DNA from: Lentisphaeria bacterium
GTDB lineage: Bacteria; Verrucomicrobiota; Lentisphaeria; Victivallales; UBA1829
Reading direction: 5' to 3'
Assembly: GCA_017541665.1 (NCBI GenBank)
Contig: JAFXYP010000073.1
Location: 1 to 64,000, forward strand
DNA: 64,000 nucleotides
Below, one piece after another: positions 49,482-63,271 of the stretch. How positions within the stretch are numbered: the first letter of the stretch is position 1; each line of letters starts with the position of its first letter. The notes under the pieces were generated by a model. That model was not told the origin of the DNA and searched no databases. It saw nothing but the letters and a program-made list of their open reading frames with translations. The translations under genes were made by a program, and so were the position numbers.

Positions 49482-50450
49482 TCAGTCGGCTTCGTTTTGG
49501 AGCAGGGCGGGATCAGTCTGAACCAGTGCGAGCCGGAATCCGAAGACGGAGGACCTGTCCGCAGTGATGTTCCGGAATGTGTAGGAGCGTTCGGTGTTGA
49601 ATCCCACTTGCGCACTGCCGAGGAATCCGACGTCGCGAATGACGCATGTATCTTTCATTGCGGACGCCTCCGCATCCGTGATCGCGGCGTCCCCGTCGGA
49701 ATGCCCGGAGTTGTTGAAGTCGATCGCATCCAGACACATTTCCTTCACGTTCCCGTTCATGTCGTACAATCCGAGTTCGTTCGGCTTCTTCTGTCCCACC
49801 GGATGCGTGCGGTTATTGTTGTTTTGCCGGAGGATCGAATAATCGCGCTCCTGCTGCCTGCCCTTCAGACTGACGTCGCCGGAGTTGTCGTTGTACCACG
49901 CCACGTCCTCCAGCTCGTCGCCGCCGCTGTACTTGTATCCCCTGCTTTTCGTTCCGCCCTTCGCCGCGAATTCCCACTGCGATTCCGTCGGCAGGGTGAA
50001 TTTCCAACCGGCGGGCGCTTTCCCCGATTCGTTCAGCTTCCGGCAGAATTCCATCACTTCATCCCACAGGACTTTTTCCACGGGCAGATCGTCCCCTTTG
50101 AAAGCGGACGGGTTCGCCTCCATCAACGCGTTCCACTGCGCCTGGGTCACCTCATACTGGCCGATATAGAAATCCTTCTTGAAGTTCACCGTGTGCTGCA
50201 TGGCTTTGGAATTGACGCCTTCGCCCATCTGGAAACTTGCGCCTGCGGCGGTCACTTTCACCATCTTGAGCGGAACTCCCTCCGCCAGGTCGATGGTCAG
50301 AATTTCCGAAACGATTTCATCCTCGGGGGCTCCGGTTTTATCCTCGGGGGCTCCGGTTTTATCCTCGGAGGCTCCGCAGGCGGCAGACAGGACAATCAGG
50401 GAAACAGCGGCGAAGAAAACGAACGTTCTGCCGACGATTCGTGGGAACAT
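49482..50450 (-). CDS. Formylglycine-generating-enzyme-like (SUMF1/EgtB fold) lipoprotein
   Basis: 322 residues. Lipoprotein signal FAAVSLIVLSAACGAS, then a short linker with three copies of a 7-residue unit (GAPEDKT). The domain (about 60-315) shows the SUMF1/EgtB-fold pattern: FYIGQYEVTQAQWNALM, KFTLPTESQWEFAAKGG, LGLYDMNGNVKEMCLDA and the closing SSVFGFRLALV. The two catalytic Cys residues of true FGE near the C-terminus are absent, so sulfatase activation is unlikely; other members bind ligands or are structural. It sits between two HSDDPDDG family genes. Confidence 0.85.
   Translation of the reverse strand: MFPRIVGRTFVFFAAVSLIVLSAACGASEDKTGAPEDKTGAPEDEIVSEILTIDLAEGVPLKMVKVTAAGASFQMGEGVNSKAMQHTVNFKKDFYIGQYEVTQAQWNALMEANPSAFKGDDLPVEKVLWDEVMEFCRKLNESGKAPAGWKFTLPTESQWEFAAKGGTKSRGYKYSGGDELEDVAWYNDNSGDVSLKGRQQERDYSILRQNNNNRTHPVGQKKPNELGLYDMNGNVKEMCLDAIDFNNSGHSDGDAAITDAEASAMKDTCVIRDVGFLGSAQVGFNTERSYTFRNITADRSSVFGFRLALVQTDPALLQNEAD
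50325..50386 (-). repeat. 21-bp tandem repeat encoding GAPEDKT in the FGE-like lipoprotein
   Basis: GGGGCTCCGGTTTTATCCTC recurs at a 21-bp period, with a third copy ending in an A variant. It encodes a short linker next to the lipid anchor. Confidence 0.8.
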
Positions 50451-51847: not shown

Positions 51848-54457
51848 TTACTTCTGTTGTTCCCGAAGGCGCCTGACCTCCTGTCCGGCGCGTTCCAGGC
51901 GCTGGCGAACCAGATCGGTCTGCTCTTTTGTGGCGCCCGGCGTCTTCGAGAGCGTTTTGAGCAGTTCCTTCAGTTCATTCTGGTCCTCGATCGCCTTCCG
52001 CAGCTGCTCTTTCCGTTCCGCTTCGGGGTCTTTCGCGTTGTTCGTGCGTGTGTCGTTCGAGGCGGGCCTGCCGCGGCCGGCCTCCCTGCGCGGAGCGGAA
52101 TCCGGGTCGAAGATGTTCCGCGCCACGGTGGTCTTGATCTTGTTTTCCGGTGACACGGTCTCCTTTCGCGGCTCCGGATTGTCCTTTTTCGCAAGGGTCG
52201 CGGAGAAAGAGTACACGTCGTCGGAAACGGCCCTCCGCATCAGCCGGGCGATCGTCCAGGCGGGGAAGCGCAAGTGTCGAGGGAGGTCGGCAGCATAACG
52301 CACATGCGTCTGGATCGTGAAGTCGCATTTCCCGTCGTGGAGCCGGAAATCGGTCACGAGCGCGTCGTCGGGGAGCGAGACAGACAAATCGTAAAGCAGG
52401 GTGAGGAAGTCCGTGTCGCCGACGGCAGGCGGTGCGTCATCCATCCGTTTCCCGTTCGCCGATGCGGCGGAACCGGCTGCCGGTGTGTCCGTGATGGCGC
52501 GAATCCGTGCGCTCAGGCGGAACGACTTGCCGGAGGCCGCAGCAGCGGACGCGTCGCCCTGAAGCTCGGCCGCGATGCGTTCGCGGGCGGAATTGACGCG
52601 GAGTTCGAGGCGGCGCCAGGAAAGATGCGGCATATAACTCTCGATTTCGCGGATGAAGCGGACGATCCCGGCATATTCGTCGACGATGTCGAGATCGAGG
52701 TCGGCGTAGGAATGATCGGCGTCGATCGGCGTGAACTTGACGTCGCCGAGCGGCTGGAGTTTTGCTCCCGCGCGCTTCGCCGCTTCGTTGACGAGCCTGC
52801 GGAGCATGACTTCGGGCTTTCCGTCGCGCGATGCGACCCAGAGGGGCAATCCCGCGAATATGTCCGGTTCCTTCCGGTCGCCGGGTTCGGTCTGTTGTAC
52901 CCGTTTCGGGGGATCCCCCGTTCCCGTTTCGGAAAGGCCGGACGAGCTCAGACGATACGCTTTCCCGTTCCCGTCGACGCTGTACCGGTACTCGTTTTCC
53001 CAGGGATCCAGCGGGACCTTCGGCACGATGTAGGGACCGTCCCAGCGCGGATCGTCGTCTATGTTCTTTTCGAGGCAGCGCAGACTGGAGGGATAGGTCC
53101 CGACGTCCAGCCTGTAGACTTCCAGCGCGTCGTTGAGCAGCTGGATCTGTTTTTTCGCCAGTTCGACCTTGTCATCGGGAGCGGTTTTGACTTCGTTCTT
53201 TGCTTCCTTTTTGTTCGGGATGTTCCGGATGATCCCCTCGGGCCGCATGTATTCGCGATAGAAATTGCCTTCCGAAACGTTCCTGTCGCCTTCCTTCCGG
53301 TTCAAGACCACCTGCTCGATCCTTACCCGGACCTGAAGTAACGTTTCCCGACCTATGTCGTGACCGGCGGGACAAACAAATATTGTTCCATAGTGCTGTC
53401 CGCATTTCACGAAAGCGAACAGATAGTTCGTTTCGTACGGGAAACGCCCATCGGCGCCTCTTTTCCCGAAATCGCACACGAGTTCCTTCCGGTAGCCTGT
53501 TTCCGGCGCGGTCGGATAATGTTTCTCGTATTCTACCCATTTAACAAACCCCGTTCCCAATTTGTCCACGGCGATGAAACCGTCGTCGGGATCATCGGAA
53601 TGGAGCCGGATGATGAACGAGGCGGGGCACGGGGTGTCCCGAAGCATCCCGTCGAACAGGACTTCGCCGTTTTCGTCCCGTTTGAAATCCAGTTCGATAT
53701 ATTTCGTCAGTTCCGGCTTCGTTTTCAGGTCGAACGACTTCATTCCGATCGTTCTTTCCTCCTCATATTCTTCTTCCTCCTCTTCTTCCTCGTCCTCCAT
53801 CTCCTCGTCCTCCGGCGAAACGGTCGTCTTTTTCGTCTTTTCCGGTTTTTCCGGCTTTCTGTCGAACGCGGAAAGATCGCAGACCGTTTTCTGTCCTTTT
53901 TCGAAATCGTATCGCAGCGTTCCAGAGGTCCCGACCAGGTCGGCGGCGGGGACGCCTTTGTACATTTTAATCTGGATGTCCTCTTTCATCAGGAGTTTCG
54001 GCTCGCCCTCGCCGGTGGAGTTCGATACCGCGTGAAGGGACGCCTCCGCAGAATTCATCATCTCGATGAGATTAAACCCATAACTTCTGTCTTCGAGATA
54101 ATAGCCGTCCTTCAGGAAACGGAGTTCAAGCCTCGTCCAGCCTTTTTCCTGAATGCGGAATTTGGAATCGACCGTCTTCTTCTCTGTTTTTTCCTCCTTC
54201 CCGCCGCTTAAGAGCAGTTTGGCGTCCGGGCGCGACCGTTCAAGCTCCATCGTGACGCCGTCCAGCGGCTTGCCGTCGGTGTCCGTGATAGTGAACTGAA
54301 GGTCGAATTCCGAAGCGTCGATCCGGTTTTGCAATTCGTTTATGAAGCTGGCCCACGCCTCTTTTTCCTCGTCTCTCGTCTGCGCGTACAGGACGCTTAC
54401 TGCCGCGAAAAGGGGGATCGCGATCAGGGCGATGATCCAAGCGGTTTTGTGTTTCAT
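51848..54457 (-). CDS. 869-aa chimera: HSDDPDDG family member 3 + GspG-like pseudopilin domain + PilO/GspM-like region
   Basis: Signal anchor at 6-24. Residues about 45-130 are CarboxypepD_reg-like (FDLQFTITDTDGKPLDGVTM). An acidic stretch of Glu precedes the family marks FIIRLHSDDPDDGFIAV and FVKCGQHYGTIFV (about 300-390). Residues about 435-520 match the globular part of the type II secretion major pseudopilin: KQIQLLNDALEVYRLDVGTYP, a WDGPYI and VPLDPWENEYRY. Residues about 540-760 resemble PilO/GspM (VASRDGKPEVMLRRLVNEAA, FIREIESYMPHLSWRRLELR), then ARNIFDPDSAP and a C-terminal coiled coil. No N-methylated pseudopilin helix is left. First gene of the set. Confidence 0.78.
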   Translation of the reverse strand: MKHKTAWIIALIAIPLFAAVSVLYAQTRDEEKEAWASFINELQNRIDASEFDLQFTITDTDGKPLDGVTMELERSRPDAKLLLSGGKEEKTEKKTVDSKFRIQEKGWTRLELRFLKDGYYLEDRSYGFNLIEMMNSAEASLHAVSNSTGEGEPKLLMKEDIQIKMYKGVPAADLVGTSGTLRYDFEKGQKTVCDLSAFDRKPEKPEKTKKTTVSPEDEEMEDEEEEEEEEYEEERTIGMKSFDLKTKPELTKYIELDFKRDENGEVLFDGMLRDTPCPASFIIRLHSDDPDDGFIAVDKLGTGFVKWVEYEKHYPTAPETGYRKELVCDFGKRGADGRFPYETNYLFAFVKCGQHYGTIFVCPAGHDIGRETLLQVRVRIEQVVLNRKEGDRNVSEGNFYREYMRPEGIIRNIPNKKEAKNEVKTAPDDKVELAKKQIQLLNDALEVYRLDVGTYPSSLRCLEKNIDDDPRWDGPYIVPKVPLDPWENEYRYSVDGNGKAYRLSSSGLSETGTGDPPKRVQQTEPGDRKEPDIFAGLPLWVASRDGKPEVMLRRLVNEAAKRAGAKLQPLGDVKFTPIDADHSYADLDLDIVDEYAGIVRFIREIESYMPHLSWRRLELRVNSARERIAAELQGDASAAAASGKSFRLSARIRAITDTPAAGSAASANGKRMDDAPPAVGDTDFLTLLYDLSVSLPDDALVTDFRLHDGKCDFTIQTHVRYAADLPRHLRFPAWTIARLMRRAVSDDVYSFSATLAKKDNPEPRKETVSPENKIKTTVARNIFDPDSAPRREAGRGRPASNDTRTNNAKDPEAERKEQLRKAIEDQNELKELLKTLSKTPGATKEQTDLVRQRLERAGQEVRRLREQQK

Positions 54458-54831: not shown

Positions 54832-55962
54832 TTACGGGACTTCGAGGTCCTTCGGCATGGAGCAGAAGTTTTCGATGCCGGTGTCGGTGATGAGCACCAG
54901 GTCCTCGATGCGGACGCCGCCGATGTCGTGGTAGTACAGGCCGGGTTCGACGGTGATCACGTTTCCGGGGCGGAGCAGCTCGTAATTGCGGGCGGAGAAC
55001 CGGGGCTGTTCGTGGATTTCGAGCCCGACGCTGTGGCCGAGCCCGTGGAAATATCCGCAGGGATAGCCCTCGCTGTCGACGCCGGTCTTGAACCCCGCTT
55101 CGGCGAGCGAAGTGATGCAGAAGTCCTGCATGAGTCCGCACTGGACGCCGGGCTTCAGCTTTGCCTCGACCGCCTCGTTCACATAGCGGACGGCCTTGTA
55201 CATTTCGAAGAGGCGCTTGGGCGCTTTGCCCTTCACGAACGTGCGGGTCATGTCGCCCCAGTAGCCGTTGACGTCGCTGCGCGGGAAGATGTCGGAGACG
55301 ACGGGCGCGCCGGCCTTGATCGGGCCGCTGCCGATGCAGTGCGGCAGGGCGGAATCGGGTCCGCAGGAGATGATGGTGCCGACGGCGGAATAGGATTTGC
55401 GCTTGAACTCGGCTTCGACCTCGGCGCGGATGAAGTCGCAGGTCAGGACTTTGCCGTGCCATTCGAGGAAGCCCTGCGAATTGACCGTGGACTCGGCGAT
55501 GAAGTCGCGCACCTGGTACTGGGCCTCCTGCGTGGCGGTCTCCGCGGCGCGGATTTTCTCGATCTCGTCGGGACGCTTCACGGCGCGTTCGGGGAAGAAC
55601 GGCCCGAGGGCCATTTCGACTTCGATCCCGGCGGCGCGGAGCTTCTCGGCATAGACCAGGGGGAAGCGTTCGGGCACCTGCCAGCGGGTCACGCCGTAGA
55701 CCTTGCTGATGGCGGCCACGAGGCAGCGTTTGCAGTCCGGCGGGGCCTGCTTCAGGACGTCGGCGAAATCGACCACCTCGACGCCGGGCCGGACTTCCTG
55801 ACGCGCACGAGCGAGCTCCAGTACGGACACGAACGCATAACGTTTGCCCCCGATCTCGGCATAGATGAATTCGTCCGGGGCGAAGAATCCGGATCCGTAG
55901 ACGAGGTCGGCGGATTCGGCGGTGGTGGCCGCGATCAGGCGGGCCTGGGCGTTTTTTTCCAT
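54832..55962 (-). CDS. M24-family metallopeptidase (Xaa-Pro aminopeptidase-like)
   Basis: 376 residues from ATG 55962. Pita-bread-fold aminopeptidase. Metal ligands in order: Asp in VVSDIFPRSDVNGYWGDMTR (both Asp), His in FHGLGHSVGLEIHE, Glu in ITVEPGLYYH, Glu in GVRIEDLVLIT. N-terminal creatinase-like domain about 1-150. Cytoplasmic. It cleaves N-terminal residues before Pro in typical relatives; the true substrate is unknown. It is divergent from the PlsY-GpsA gene over a shared 99-nt AT-rich region. A TTG one codon upstream of ATG is unlikely to be used. Confidence 0.92.
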   Translation of the reverse strand: MEKNAQARLIAATTAESADLVYGSGFFAPDEFIYAEIGGKRYAFVSVLELARARQEVRPGVEVVDFADVLKQAPPDCKRCLVAAISKVYGVTRWQVPERFPLVYAEKLRAAGIEVEMALGPFFPERAVKRPDEIEKIRAAETATQEAQYQVRDFIAESTVNSQGFLEWHGKVLTCDFIRAEVEAEFKRKSYSAVGTIISCGPDSALPHCIGSGPIKAGAPVVSDIFPRSDVNGYWGDMTRTFVKGKAPKRLFEMYKAVRYVNEAVEAKLKPGVQCGLMQDFCITSLAEAGFKTGVDSEGYPCGYFHGLGHSVGLEIHEQPRFSARNYELLRPGNVITVEPGLYYHDIGGVRIEDLVLITDTGIENFCSMPKDLEVP

Positions 55963-56024
55963 CAAAAAAGAACCTGTTCGCTTGAAAAAGAATGAAAATG
56001 AAGTTAAATTGAATGATACACTTT

Positions 56025-56061: not shown

Positions 56062-57813
56062 ATGACGATTTCCAGTACACCTGTCGGCGTCGGCGTCTCC
56101 ATCACCATCATCGCGCTCGGATCCTACCTCGTCGGGGCCGTCCCGTTCGGCTTCCTCATCGGCAAGATGAAGGGCATCGACATCCGGAAGCACGGCAGCG
56201 GCAATATCGGCGCGACGAACGTGACGCGCGTGGTGGGCAAAGGCTGGGGCCGCCTCTGCTTCTTCCTCGACTTCCTGAAGGGCGCGTTCCCCGTGATCGC
56301 GGCCTCCATGCTCTCCACGCGCGAATCTTCACAGTTCGTGGTGGAACACCTGCCCGAATGGCTGAAGATGGAGCCGTGTCTCCCCGATCCCGCCGGACTG
56401 CTGGCCTGCGTGGCGGCGTTCGCGGCGGTCTGCGGGCACATCTGGCCGGTGTACCTGAAATTCAAGGGCGGGAAGGGGATTTCGACTGCCGCGGGCGCGA
56501 TCCTGGCGCTGAATCCGCTGTCGCTGATCTCCGCCGGCGTCGTGTGGGCGGTGGTCTTCTTCGCCTCGCGCTACGTGTCGCTGGCAAGCATCGCCGCCGC
56601 CGTGTCGATCGCCGTCTTCTGCGTGGTCTTCCGCCTGGCCGGGCTTTCGAATGCGACCCGGCCGGAGATCCTTCTGCTCTTCCTGCTTGCCGCATTGGCC
56701 GTGACCAAGCACGCGTCGAACATCAAGCGGTTGCGCGAGGGGACGGAGAATAAATTCGAACGCAAGAAGAAGGCGGCTCCGCTGTCGCTTGCCACGCTTC
56801 AGGACAGTTCCGCCATCCATGCCGCGGTGCTGGGCGACGGCGCCTGGGGCACCGCGCTGGCGCTGACGCTCCACGCCAACGGCCACAAGGTGAAGGTGTG
56901 GGGCGCGTTCCAGGAGAACATCGACGCCGTGAACCGCGACCATGAGAACAAAAAGTTCCTGGCTGGCGTGCCGATCCCGGACGATCTGGAGTTCACTTCC
57001 GACATGGAATCCGCGGTGAAGGACGCGCGGCTGGTCGTGCTCGCCACGCCGTCGCAGTACCTCCGCGGCGTGCTCCAGAAATTCAAGCCATACCTGAACC
57101 CCGACACGCAGATCGTCGTGGACATCGTGAAGGGCATCGAGGTCAGCTCGCTGCTGACCATGAGCGAGCTCTGCCGGCAGGAACTCGGCCCGACGCATTA
57201 CGTGGCGCTCTCCGGGCCGAGCCATGCCGAGGAAGTCGCGCGCCGGATCCCGACTTTGGTCGTGACCGCGTGCGAGGACCGCGATATCGCGGAGTACGTC
57301 CAGCGTATCTTCATGAACGATTTCTTCCGCGTGTACACGTCGTACGACGTGGTCGGCGTGGAGCTGGGCGGCGCGCTGAAGAACATCTACGCCATCGCCG
57401 CCGGATTCGTCGACGGCTGCGGCCTGGGCGACAACACCAAGGCCGCGCTGATGACGCGCGCTATCGCCGAGATGTCCCGCCTGGGCAAGCGACTCGGCGG
57501 ACAGAGGGGCACGTTCAGCGGGCTGAGCGGCGTGGGCGACCTGATCGTGACCTGCACCAGCCGTCACAGCCGCAACCGCTACGTCGGCGAGGAGCTCGGC
57601 AAGGGGCGCAAGATCGACGAGATCATCCGTTCCATGAACATGGTCGTGGCCGAGGGCGTGAAGACCTGCGAGGCGGCCTACGAGCTCTCCGAACGCTGGA
57701 ACGTCGAAACGCCGCTGATCCACGGCATCTACGCCGTGATCCATGACGGTCGCGACGCGCGCGAAGTCGTGCATGGGCTCATGACCCGCAAGGCGAAAAA
57801 CGAGGAGGAGTGA
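56062..57813 (+). CDS. plsY-gpsA: Fused glycerol-3-phosphate acyltransferase (PlsY) and glycerol-3-phosphate dehydrogenase (GpsA)
   Basis: 583 residues. Residues 1-235 are PlsY, a membrane enzyme that moves an acyl group from acyl-phosphate to glycerol-3-phosphate: VPFGFLIGKMKGIDIRKHGS, GNIGATNVTRVVG, KFKGGKGISTAAGAIL and KHASNIKRLREGTENKF, with about five membrane helices. After a basic linker (about 236-252), residues 253-583 are GpsA, which makes glycerol-3-phosphate from DHAP with NAD(P)H: GDGAWGTALALTLHANGH (dinucleotide loop), LSGPSHAEEVARRIPT, ELGGALKNIYAIAAG (catalytic Lys) and GLSGVGDLIVTCTSRHSRNR. There is no stop or frameshift at the junction. Both halves keep their signature residues, so both are probably active. 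Confidence 0.93.
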   Translation: MTISSTPVGVGVSITIIALGSYLVGAVPFGFLIGKMKGIDIRKHGSGNIGATNVTRVVGKGWGRLCFFLDFLKGAFPVIAASMLSTRESSQFVVEHLPEWLKMEPCLPDPAGLLACVAAFAAVCGHIWPVYLKFKGGKGISTAAGAILALNPLSLISAGVVWAVVFFASRYVSLASIAAAVSIAVFCVVFRLAGLSNATRPEILLLFLLAALAVTKHASNIKRLREGTENKFERKKKAAPLSLATLQDSSAIHAAVLGDGAWGTALALTLHANGHKVKVWGAFQENIDAVNRDHENKKFLAGVPIPDDLEFTSDMESAVKDARLVVLATPSQYLRGVLQKFKPYLNPDTQIVVDIVKGIEVSSLLTMSELCRQELGPTHYVALSGPSHAEEVARRIPTLVVTACEDRDIAEYVQRIFMNDFFRVYTSYDVVGVELGGALKNIYAIAAGFVDGCGLGDNTKAALMTRAIAEMSRLGKRLGGQRGTFSGLSGVGDLIVTCTSRHSRNRYVGEELGKGRKIDEIIRSMNMVVAEGVKTCEAAYELSERWNVETPLIHGIYAVIHDGRDAREVVHGLMTRKAKNEEE

Positions 57814-58673: not shown

Positions 58674-60278
58674 TTACTCACGCGCTGCTTCCGCGCGTTT
58701 ATGCCATTTTTCCGCTTCGGCCTCGTCCTGTTCCACACCTACGCCTTTCTCATAGCAGTCGCCAAGCCACTTCATCGCATCCTTATTGCCGTTTTCCGCG
58801 GCCTTTTTGAACCATTTGAAAGCTTCGGCTTTATCGGTTTTCACGCCGTCGCCATCGTGATACATCCAGGCGAGGTTGTTCATTGCAGTCGTATTGCCGT
58901 TTTCCGCTGATTTTTTATACCATTTGACCGCTTCGGCCTTATTTTCTTCCACCCCGTCGCCGTTCGCATACTTCCAACCAACCGGGAGAAATGCATTCTC
59001 CTTGCCGTTTTCCGCGGCCTTTTTGAACCATTTGAACGCTTCGGCCTTATCTTCCTTCACGCCGTCGCCTCGATCATACATAAAAGCGAGGTTGTTCATT
59101 GCAGTCGTATTGCCGTTTTCCGCTGATTTTTTATACCATTTGACCGCTTCGGCCTTATTTTCTTCCACCCCGTCGCCGTTCTCATACTTCCAGCCCAGCG
59201 GGAGCATTGCATCCGCATTGCCGTTTTCCGCGGCCTTTTTGAACCATTTGAACGCTTCGGCCTTATCTTCCTTCACCCCGTTGCCGTTTTGGTATTTTTC
59301 GCCGAGTCGGTACATTGCGTCCGTATTGCCTTTTTCAGCTGCCTGTATGTCTATATCCAGCCATCTTTTATTTCTGGTTTCCTCTGCAAGCTTAGACCAT
59401 TTCTCCGCTTCGGCCTTATCCCGCCGTACTCCGGTGCCAAAACTGTAGCATAATGCAAGCTGATCCATCGCACCCGCGTGGCCTTTTTCGGCGGCCTTTT
59501 TATACCACTTGGCCTCTTCGTAGGCATTCTTTCTCACGCCATTGCCCTGGCCATAGCAGAAGCCGATCCGATACTGCGCATCGGCATAGTCCTTGTTTGC
59601 GGCCATCAGATACCATCTGAACGCTTCGGCCTTATTTTCTTTCACGCCCTTGCCGTCCTCAAAGCATTCGCCAAGCTCGCACATCGCTTCCACATCGCCT
59701 TTTTCGGCGGCCTTCAGCGTATCACTGACATCTTTCATGGAATCAATGAAAGCCTTGGCGTTCTGATTCCCGCCTTTTGCTGCTTTTCGATACCATTTGA
59801 CGGCTTCGATCATATCGATATTGAGATCCTCGACTTCATAATAACTTCCAACGGCGGCGGCCGCACCATCGGCTATTTGACGCTCCTCAAGTTCCTCGAC
59901 ATGGAGTTCGACCGCAAATACTTCTCCGTCCTCCCCGAAACGATAGCTTTCGCCGACCTTGTACATCGCGTCCGCATTGCCGTTTTCGGCTGCCTGTTTG
60001 AACCATTTGAGTGCTTCGCTCCTGCTCTCGTCCACGCCCTTGCCTTCCTCATAGCAGAGACCGACCTGATACTGTGCCCCGGCATGGCCCTTGTTTGCGG
60101 CGAGGGCGAACTGCGTTACCGCCGTTTTGTAATCCTGGGCGACAAGGGCGGCCTGGCCCTGTTCGTATTCATTCTGGCCTTTCTTCCCGACCTTCCCGCA
60201 GGAGGTGGAAAGCAGCGCCGCCAGGACGCAGACGGAAACGCCGATGATGATTCGGCTGCTGTTTCGGTTGAGTTTCAT
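58674..60278 (-). CDS. Sel1-repeat lipoprotein
   Basis: 534 residues. Lipoprotein signal SVCVLAALLSTSCGKV. About eleven Sel1-like repeats of 36 residues, such as AVTQFALAANKGHAGAQYQV, ALKWFKQAAENGNADAMYKV, AFRWYLMAANKDYADAQYRI. Two interruptions occur: an insert around residues 120-145 (EVFAVELHVEELEERQIADG) and a short DUF-like link near 315 (RNKRWLDIDIQAAEKG). The last five units are made of near-identical 72-residue pairs. No partner is known; such proteins usually scaffold complexes. 93 nt before the DUF805 gene. Confidence 0.9.
   Translation of the reverse strand: MKLNRNSSRIIIGVSVCVLAALLSTSCGKVGKKGQNEYEQGQAALVAQDYKTAVTQFALAANKGHAGAQYQVGLCYEEGKGVDESRSEALKWFKQAAENGNADAMYKVGESYRFGEDGEVFAVELHVEELEERQIADGAAAAVGSYYEVEDLNIDMIEAVKWYRKAAKGGNQNAKAFIDSMKDVSDTLKAAEKGDVEAMCELGECFEDGKGVKENKAEAFRWYLMAANKDYADAQYRIGFCYGQGNGVRKNAYEEAKWYKKAAEKGHAGAMDQLALCYSFGTGVRRDKAEAEKWSKLAEETRNKRWLDIDIQAAEKGNTDAMYRLGEKYQNGNGVKEDKAEAFKWFKKAAENGNADAMLPLGWKYENGDGVEENKAEAVKWYKKSAENGNTTAMNNLAFMYDRGDGVKEDKAEAFKWFKKAAENGKENAFLPVGWKYANGDGVEENKAEAVKWYKKSAENGNTTAMNNLAWMYHDGDGVKTDKAEAFKWFKKAAENGNKDAMKWLGDCYEKGVGVEQDEAEAEKWHKRAEAARE
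58870..59301 (-). repeat. 216-bp tandem repeat in the Sel1 lipoprotein gene
   Basis: The block starting GCGAGGTTGTTCATTGC occurs at 58870 and again at 59086, an exact 216-bp period (72 residues, two Sel1 units), and the match runs on for most of the unit. The high DNA identity points to recent duplication. Confidence 0.88.
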
Positions 60279-62723: not shown

Positions 62724-62999
62724 TCAGAACAAATCGCTGTGCGACCCGGTACGCATCAGCTCAAGAATGAGCTTCTCGTTCGAAATGGAGTAAATCAACA
62801 GCCAATCCGGCCTGATATGACACTCTCTTGCATTGCGATATGATCCGATCAGCGCATGATCCCGGTATGCTTCCGGAAGTGTTTTACCCTCGGCAAGCAT
62901 CGTAACTACAGCCTGAAGATCAGCAATATTGAATCTGCGTTTCTTTATCCGTTTGTAGTCCCGCTTGAACTGAGCGGTGTATGTAATTCCGTATTTCAT
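62724..62999 (-). CDS. yafQ: YafQ-family type II toxin (mRNA interferase)
   Basis: 91 residues, RelE-fold ribosome-dependent mRNase. The conserved C-terminal blocks are exact for YafQ: ARECHIRPDWLLIYSI and ELMRTGSHSDLF, with the catalytic His residues in both, and the basic N-terminal helix KRDYKRIKKR. The start overlaps the antitoxin stop by 4 nt (ATGA). Type II pairs are controlled by the antitoxin, probably at the operator listed below. Confidence 0.93.
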   Translation of the reverse strand: MKYGITYTAQFKRDYKRIKKRRFNIADLQAVVTMLAEGKTLPEAYRDHALIGSYRNARECHIRPDWLLIYSISNEKLILELMRTGSHSDLF

Positions 63000-63271
63000 G
63001 AATCAAGAGCCTCGAACAGGCTTTTGATGTCATGGTAAACGGGCGCATTGGGATCATTTGCGAGACGGTGTCCCTCAGCGATAGCATCGATTGTTTCCTG
63101 ATTGACTCGCGGAGCCGCCGTTATTTTGAAAGGAATCTCATGATCCCTGGCAATCCGTTTGAGGTAAATCGTGATGGCGGTGGACAGGTTCAGTCCCATA
63201 TCCGCCAGACAGCTTTCGACTGCATTTTTCAATTCGGAGTCGACCCGAACACAGAGATTGGATGTACTCAT
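62996..63271 (-). CDS. dinJ: DinJ/RelB-family antitoxin
   Basis: 91 residues. An N-terminal ribbon-helix-helix DNA-binding region (LCVRVDSELKNAVESCLADM, LNLSTAITIYLKRI) is followed by the toxin-binding tail, with EIPFKI, the usual DinJ motif after the helices. GGAGGAAG lies before the ATG. First gene of the pair. Confidence 0.93.
   Translation of the reverse strand: MSTSNLCVRVDSELKNAVESCLADMGLNLSTAITIYLKRIARDHEIPFKITAAPRVNQETIDAIAEGHRLANDPNAPVYHDIKSLFEALDS

Follow-up and report, generated by a model that had tools for sequence, protein, structure and literature searches.

A plsY-gpsA gene fusion conserved within one genus of rumen Lentisphaeria

The locus considered here raises the question of whether a single open reading frame that carries PlsY followed by GpsA encodes one real protein, and if so, how it arose and whether the joining matters. 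It lies in a window of 64,000 nucleotides, the whole stretch of DNA that was analysed, from a Lentisphaeria metagenome-assembled genome (MAG; contig JAFXYP010000073.1), and the features of the gene and its flanks are collected in Table 1. The earlier note had read the frame as a complete PlsY followed without interruption by a complete GpsA, and this reading was borne out. Translation from ATG to TGA gave 583 codons in one frame with 0 internal stops, and both families were recognised above their curated cut-offs (hmmscan, NCBIfam), with a complete PlsY at residues ~16-232 and a complete GpsA at ~253-582. The PlsY half was matched by TIGR00023 (residues 16-233, 175.4 bits against a cut-off of 137.2) and by Pfam G3P_acyltransf (PF02660; residues 21-224, 181.9 bits against 24.1), and the GpsA half by NF000942 (residues 253-582, 418 bits against 257), NAD_Gly3P_dh_N (PF01210; residues 255-409, 164.5 bits against 23.1) and NAD_Gly3P_dh_C (PF07479; residues 429-570, 191.8 bits against 25).

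Table 1. Positions in the window of the fusion gene, its parts and its upstream flank.
Feature	Position	Strand	Comment
M24 metallopeptidase (PepP-like) gene, divergent	54832..55965	-	Conserved neighbour in genus; flank only, outside the system
Candidate sigma-70-like promoter, TTGAAA-17-TAAATT	55982..56010	+	9 of 12, consensus match only; divergent intergenic region
plsY-gpsA fusion gene	56062..57813	+	583 aa, from ATG to TGA; frame open throughout the genus (13 genomes)
PlsY domain, residues 1-232, multi-helix membrane acyl-phosphate:G3P acyltransferase	56062..56757	+	PF02660, TIGR00023, 5xj5 alignment, Foldseek
Linker, residues ~233-252 (~20 residues)	56758..56817	+	Starts with Arg/Lys-rich PlsY end ERKKKA; low pLDDT except short helix 243-247
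GpsA domain, residues 253-583, NAD(P)-dependent glycerol-3-phosphate dehydrogenase	56818..57810	+	PF01210, PF07479, NF000942, Foldseek

The family motifs of both halves had also been described as intact, and the residues expected of working enzymes are retained. In the GpsA half K357, K440, D493, R504 and N505, which we take to be the catalytic lysine pair, aspartate and arginine-asparagine of glycerol-3-phosphate dehydrogenases (GPDH), are invariant in 28 sequences (alignment A4). In PlsY of Aquifex (aaPlsY) glycerol 3-phosphate (G3P) and acyl-phosphate are bound by S35, T41, R45, H92, K104, S142, H177 and N180 (PMC5700162), and alignment to 5xj5 found all of these ligand residues in the fused protein (S46, T52, R56, H126, K138, S176, H217 and N220), the eight being invariant in alignment A4. 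Read-through translations of relatives served as rows of alignments A3 and A4 only. An AlphaFold model built from a 28-row alignment had a mean pLDDT of 89.3, dropping around residues 231-250 and at the C-terminal end, and a pTM of 0.61. Because confidence was high over the domains and low over the linker, and the pTM was 0.61, each domain of the predicted model is taken as reliable and their relative placement is not. Foldseek searches with the predicted model matched the N-terminal part to 5xj5 (E 9.5e-13, TM 0.90 by target length) and the C-terminal part to 3k96 (TM 0.97) and 1z82 (TM 0.96). The PlsY half also has a longer inter-helix loop at residues ~85-112 (56314-56397), which is found in the genus and in the neighbouring genus represented by G017 and is missing from most other PlsY sequences (A3).

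The source genome is a MAG of 2.6 Mb in 87 contigs, 77% complete, in which one PF02660 and one PF01210 match were found across the whole genome, both at the fusion locus, with no second copy of plsY or gpsA. In so fragmentary and incomplete an assembly, an assembly or sequencing error could have deleted a stop or shifted the frame. However, the same open junction is present in 12 other assemblies from different rumen studies, and an artefact is thereby ruled out, its probability being next to nil. The genomes of this uncultured genus are rumen MAGs assembled independently, in projects on yak, goat and sheep among others. Twelve of the 13, the source included, carry an unbroken full-length frame at 70-92% protein identity, and in the thirteenth the gene is divided between two contigs where these end, and neither part contains a stop. 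Residues 235-255, where the earlier note had placed the risk of a hidden stop or frameshift, are clean in all 13 genomes. Its expectation that a real fusion would recur among relatives held for the closest ones, which belong to the same genus and are fused, and not for other genera, which carry separate genes. Between aligned members dN/dS was 0.15 for PlsY, 0.125 for GpsA and 0.33 for the linker, values that suggest coding constraint on each of the three, with purifying selection apparently acting in both halves and more weakly in the linker. Taken as a whole, the locus is very probably a real, lineage-specific gene fusion that yields one bifunctional membrane protein.

An open frame could still give two polypeptides, by internal initiation or proteolysis, such that free GpsA is also present. 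Linker ATG codons occur in three members (G006, G008 and G010), and the source protein has a GTG at residue 256. Against this, the linkers of 10 of the 13 genomes contain no ATG, GTG or TTG. The GTG at residue 256 is conserved, but a start there, immediately ahead of LGDGAWG and already in the first strand of the dinucleotide-binding fold, would cut into the GpsA domain, and a TTG at residue 224 (two genomes) sits inside PlsY motif 3. Because the GTG lies within the fold and 10 of the 13 linkers have no start codon, the genus has no conserved start for a separate GpsA. In those three members an internal start is possible, judging by their codons; as an account of the genus, two products from one frame seem very unlikely. 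As no stop codon closes the PlsY part, any ribosome that translates it must continue into GpsA, and the fused chain, conserved through the genus, is probably made as one protein.

How widely this arrangement occurs was addressed with a profile of the fused protein built from 12 sequences, which was used to search 387 Verrucomicrobiota, 246 Planctomycetota, 20 Eisenbacteria-phylum and 80 Marinimicrobiota-phylum genomes along with 120 close relatives (758 distinct genomes in total, 13 from the fusion genus). Among the matches listed, no PlsY-GpsA fusion was found outside the genus in the 745 further genomes of these four phyla, and each full-length match outside it contained at least one in-frame stop. 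Loci with a long gpsA frame were considered as candidates and rejected, ten of them in G014, G026, G034, G037, G057, G073, G113, G127, G163 and G334 and a further 20 mostly in Planctomycetota, none of which is fused; in every one plsY either has a stop at its end or is read in a different frame. G026 had looked like a fusion in the tabulated matches, but its gpsA carries a frameshift and does not share the frame of plsY. Matches from a plasmid collection (Monoglobus, Collinsella and Acetoanaerobium) also proved to be separate plsY and gpsA genes, and some PLSDB "plasmid" records with plsY-gpsA (L090-L092) appear to be whole or partial chromosomes (2.6 Mb; der-plsY-gpsA context). The earlier note's remark that the two genes are often neighbours holds for most Verrucomicrobiota and several other phyla; it fails in the 80 Marinimicrobiota genomes searched, where plsY and gpsA are on different contigs or far apart. 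The same note knew of no characterised fusion in this order, and no description of one turned up in the open-access literature, though an automatic database entry may exist. The components are two known enzymes, newly joined within one genus.

Outside the genus, in those genomes of its family and order that were searched, plsY and gpsA are mostly adjacent yet separate. The separate pairs overlap in different frames or share a frame with one stop between them, and short spacers are also seen. In the next genera (G020 and G017) the pair is in frame with one stop. At the nearest in-frame case, G020, the junction reads ...GTENRFEKKKKAE, then the stop, then QGESVMSRKKNSVMKIAVLGDG, compared with ...GTENKFERKKKAAPLSLATLQDSSAIHAAVLGDG in the source protein, and the linker is roughly as long as the old spacer and GpsA leader together. 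In a FastTree phylogeny of concatenated PlsY and GpsA the ten fused sequences included formed one clade (support 1.0) nested among unfused sequences, with genus g6 as sister (0.94) and then g9 (0.99), both unfused. The simplest account, and the most likely one from these comparisons, is a single event in the ancestor of the genus, in which neighbouring plsY and gpsA genes were joined when the plsY stop and the gpsA start were lost. Two further genera of the family have an altered gpsA, broken by an in-frame stop in G016 (L070, G016:C65) and changed in frame in G026 (L056, G026:C71); either may be an assembly error or decay.

In the window, the fusion gene stands alone between the divergent M24 peptidase gene and a convergent DUF805 gene. 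Several other genes in the window are worth recording. On the minus strand these are a YafQ-like toxin gene (62724-62999) and a RelB-like antitoxin gene (62996-63271) that overlap by 4 bases as a type II toxin-antitoxin module, a gene for an 869-residue protein (51848-54457) with a type II secretion protein G (pseudopilin) domain in mid-protein (429-514) rather than as a stand-alone pilin, one for a secreted or lipoprotein-like protein with an FGE-sulfatase (SUMF1-like) domain (49482-50450), and one for a protein with ten Sel1 repeats (58674-60278).

For the fused protein itself we infer both activities and a topology. The N-terminal PlsY domain would be embedded in the membrane and its G3P site would face the cytoplasm, the side to which the G3P/phosphate clamp of PlsY opens (PMC5700162). 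The ERKKKA segment after the last helix would fit a cytoplasmic PlsY C-terminus under the positive-inside rule, and this positively charged end would lead through the linker to a soluble GpsA on the cytoplasmic face. GpsA would then convert dihydroxyacetone phosphate (DHAP) to G3P with NAD(P)H, and PlsY would join that G3P with acyl-phosphate from PlsX to give lysophosphatidate. The main consequences would be a fixed 1:1 stoichiometry and membrane-localised G3P synthesis. Most solved GpsA entries hold two or more chains, and for this reason GpsA in its tethered form may have to associate with a second copy. Each of the 13 genus genomes has PlsX. No glycerol kinase reaches the TIGR01311 cut-off in those genomes (G000-G012; best 77.6 of 590 bits), and because none is recognised the GpsA half is probably the main source of G3P for lipids in the genus.

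Separate PlsY (aaPlsY, 5xj5-5xj9) and GpsA (1z82, 3k96) have the same domains, active-site residues and folds as the fusion, whose domain order is that of the common gene pair. The difference is that the fusion is one chain with a linker, whereas relatives have a stop, an overlap or a short spacer. Of the analogues found, the nearest in function is the algal phosphatase-GPDH bidomain enzyme (Dunaliella/Chlamydomonas; 6iuy), which takes DHAP directly to glycerol (PMC7468427). It likewise joins a C-terminal NAD-dependent GPDH to an enzyme that consumes its product G3P (PMC7468427). However, the algal partner is a phosphoserine-phosphatase-like domain that makes glycerol and the partner here is a membrane acyltransferase that starts phospholipids. 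No phosphatase match was found in the fused protein (Pfam), its N-terminal domain being PlsY, and the two architectures have no common origin.

Whether the joining itself matters can be read in two ways, both of them versions of the bifunctional fusion favoured above. The joining may be neutral operon compaction, in which a stop-loss accident between adjacent, functionally linked genes became fixed and both halves work with no kinetic or regulatory effect of being joined; this is compatible with a bifunctional protein. Relatives commonly have the two genes adjacent and in frame with one stop between them, so that few steps would suffice, the linker evolves faster than either domain, and the fusion occurs in only one genus among the genomes searched and the matches listed. 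However, it has been retained in 13 of 13 genomes at 70-92% identity without reversion, and there is no conserved internal start. Neutral compaction is a serious possibility, if slightly short of an even chance. In the second reading GpsA, being tethered, increases local G3P where PlsY binds it and couples lipid initiation to DHAP and redox state. The two enzymes catalyse consecutive steps, the phosphate clamp of PlsY faces the cytoplasm (PMC5700162), glycerol kinase was not found in the 13 genus genomes, and the algal enzyme offers a precedent for GPDH fused to a G3P-consuming partner (PMC7468427; 6iuy). But the linker is flexible and domain placement undefined in the AlphaFold model, G3P is small and soluble, and no tunnel or conserved interface was identified, which leaves channelling or local supply rather unlikely. 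It is distinctly doubtful that the full form of this idea holds, namely that a membrane-tethered G3P synthase channels or locally supplies G3P to PlsY, that a lineage without a recognised glycerol kinase thereby sets its committed phospholipid step directly by DHAP and NAD(P)H, and that this is the first described case in bacteria of a natural fusion between the G3P-making and the G3P-acylating step.

As a very probable bifunctional protein, the fusion provides natural evidence of functional coupling between PlsY and GpsA, and the fused gene is a ready construct for asking whether membrane-tethered G3P synthesis alters phospholipid initiation. With what is most likely a single origin, and with unfused in-frame pairs in sister genera, it also offers an example of how adjacent metabolic genes become one protein.
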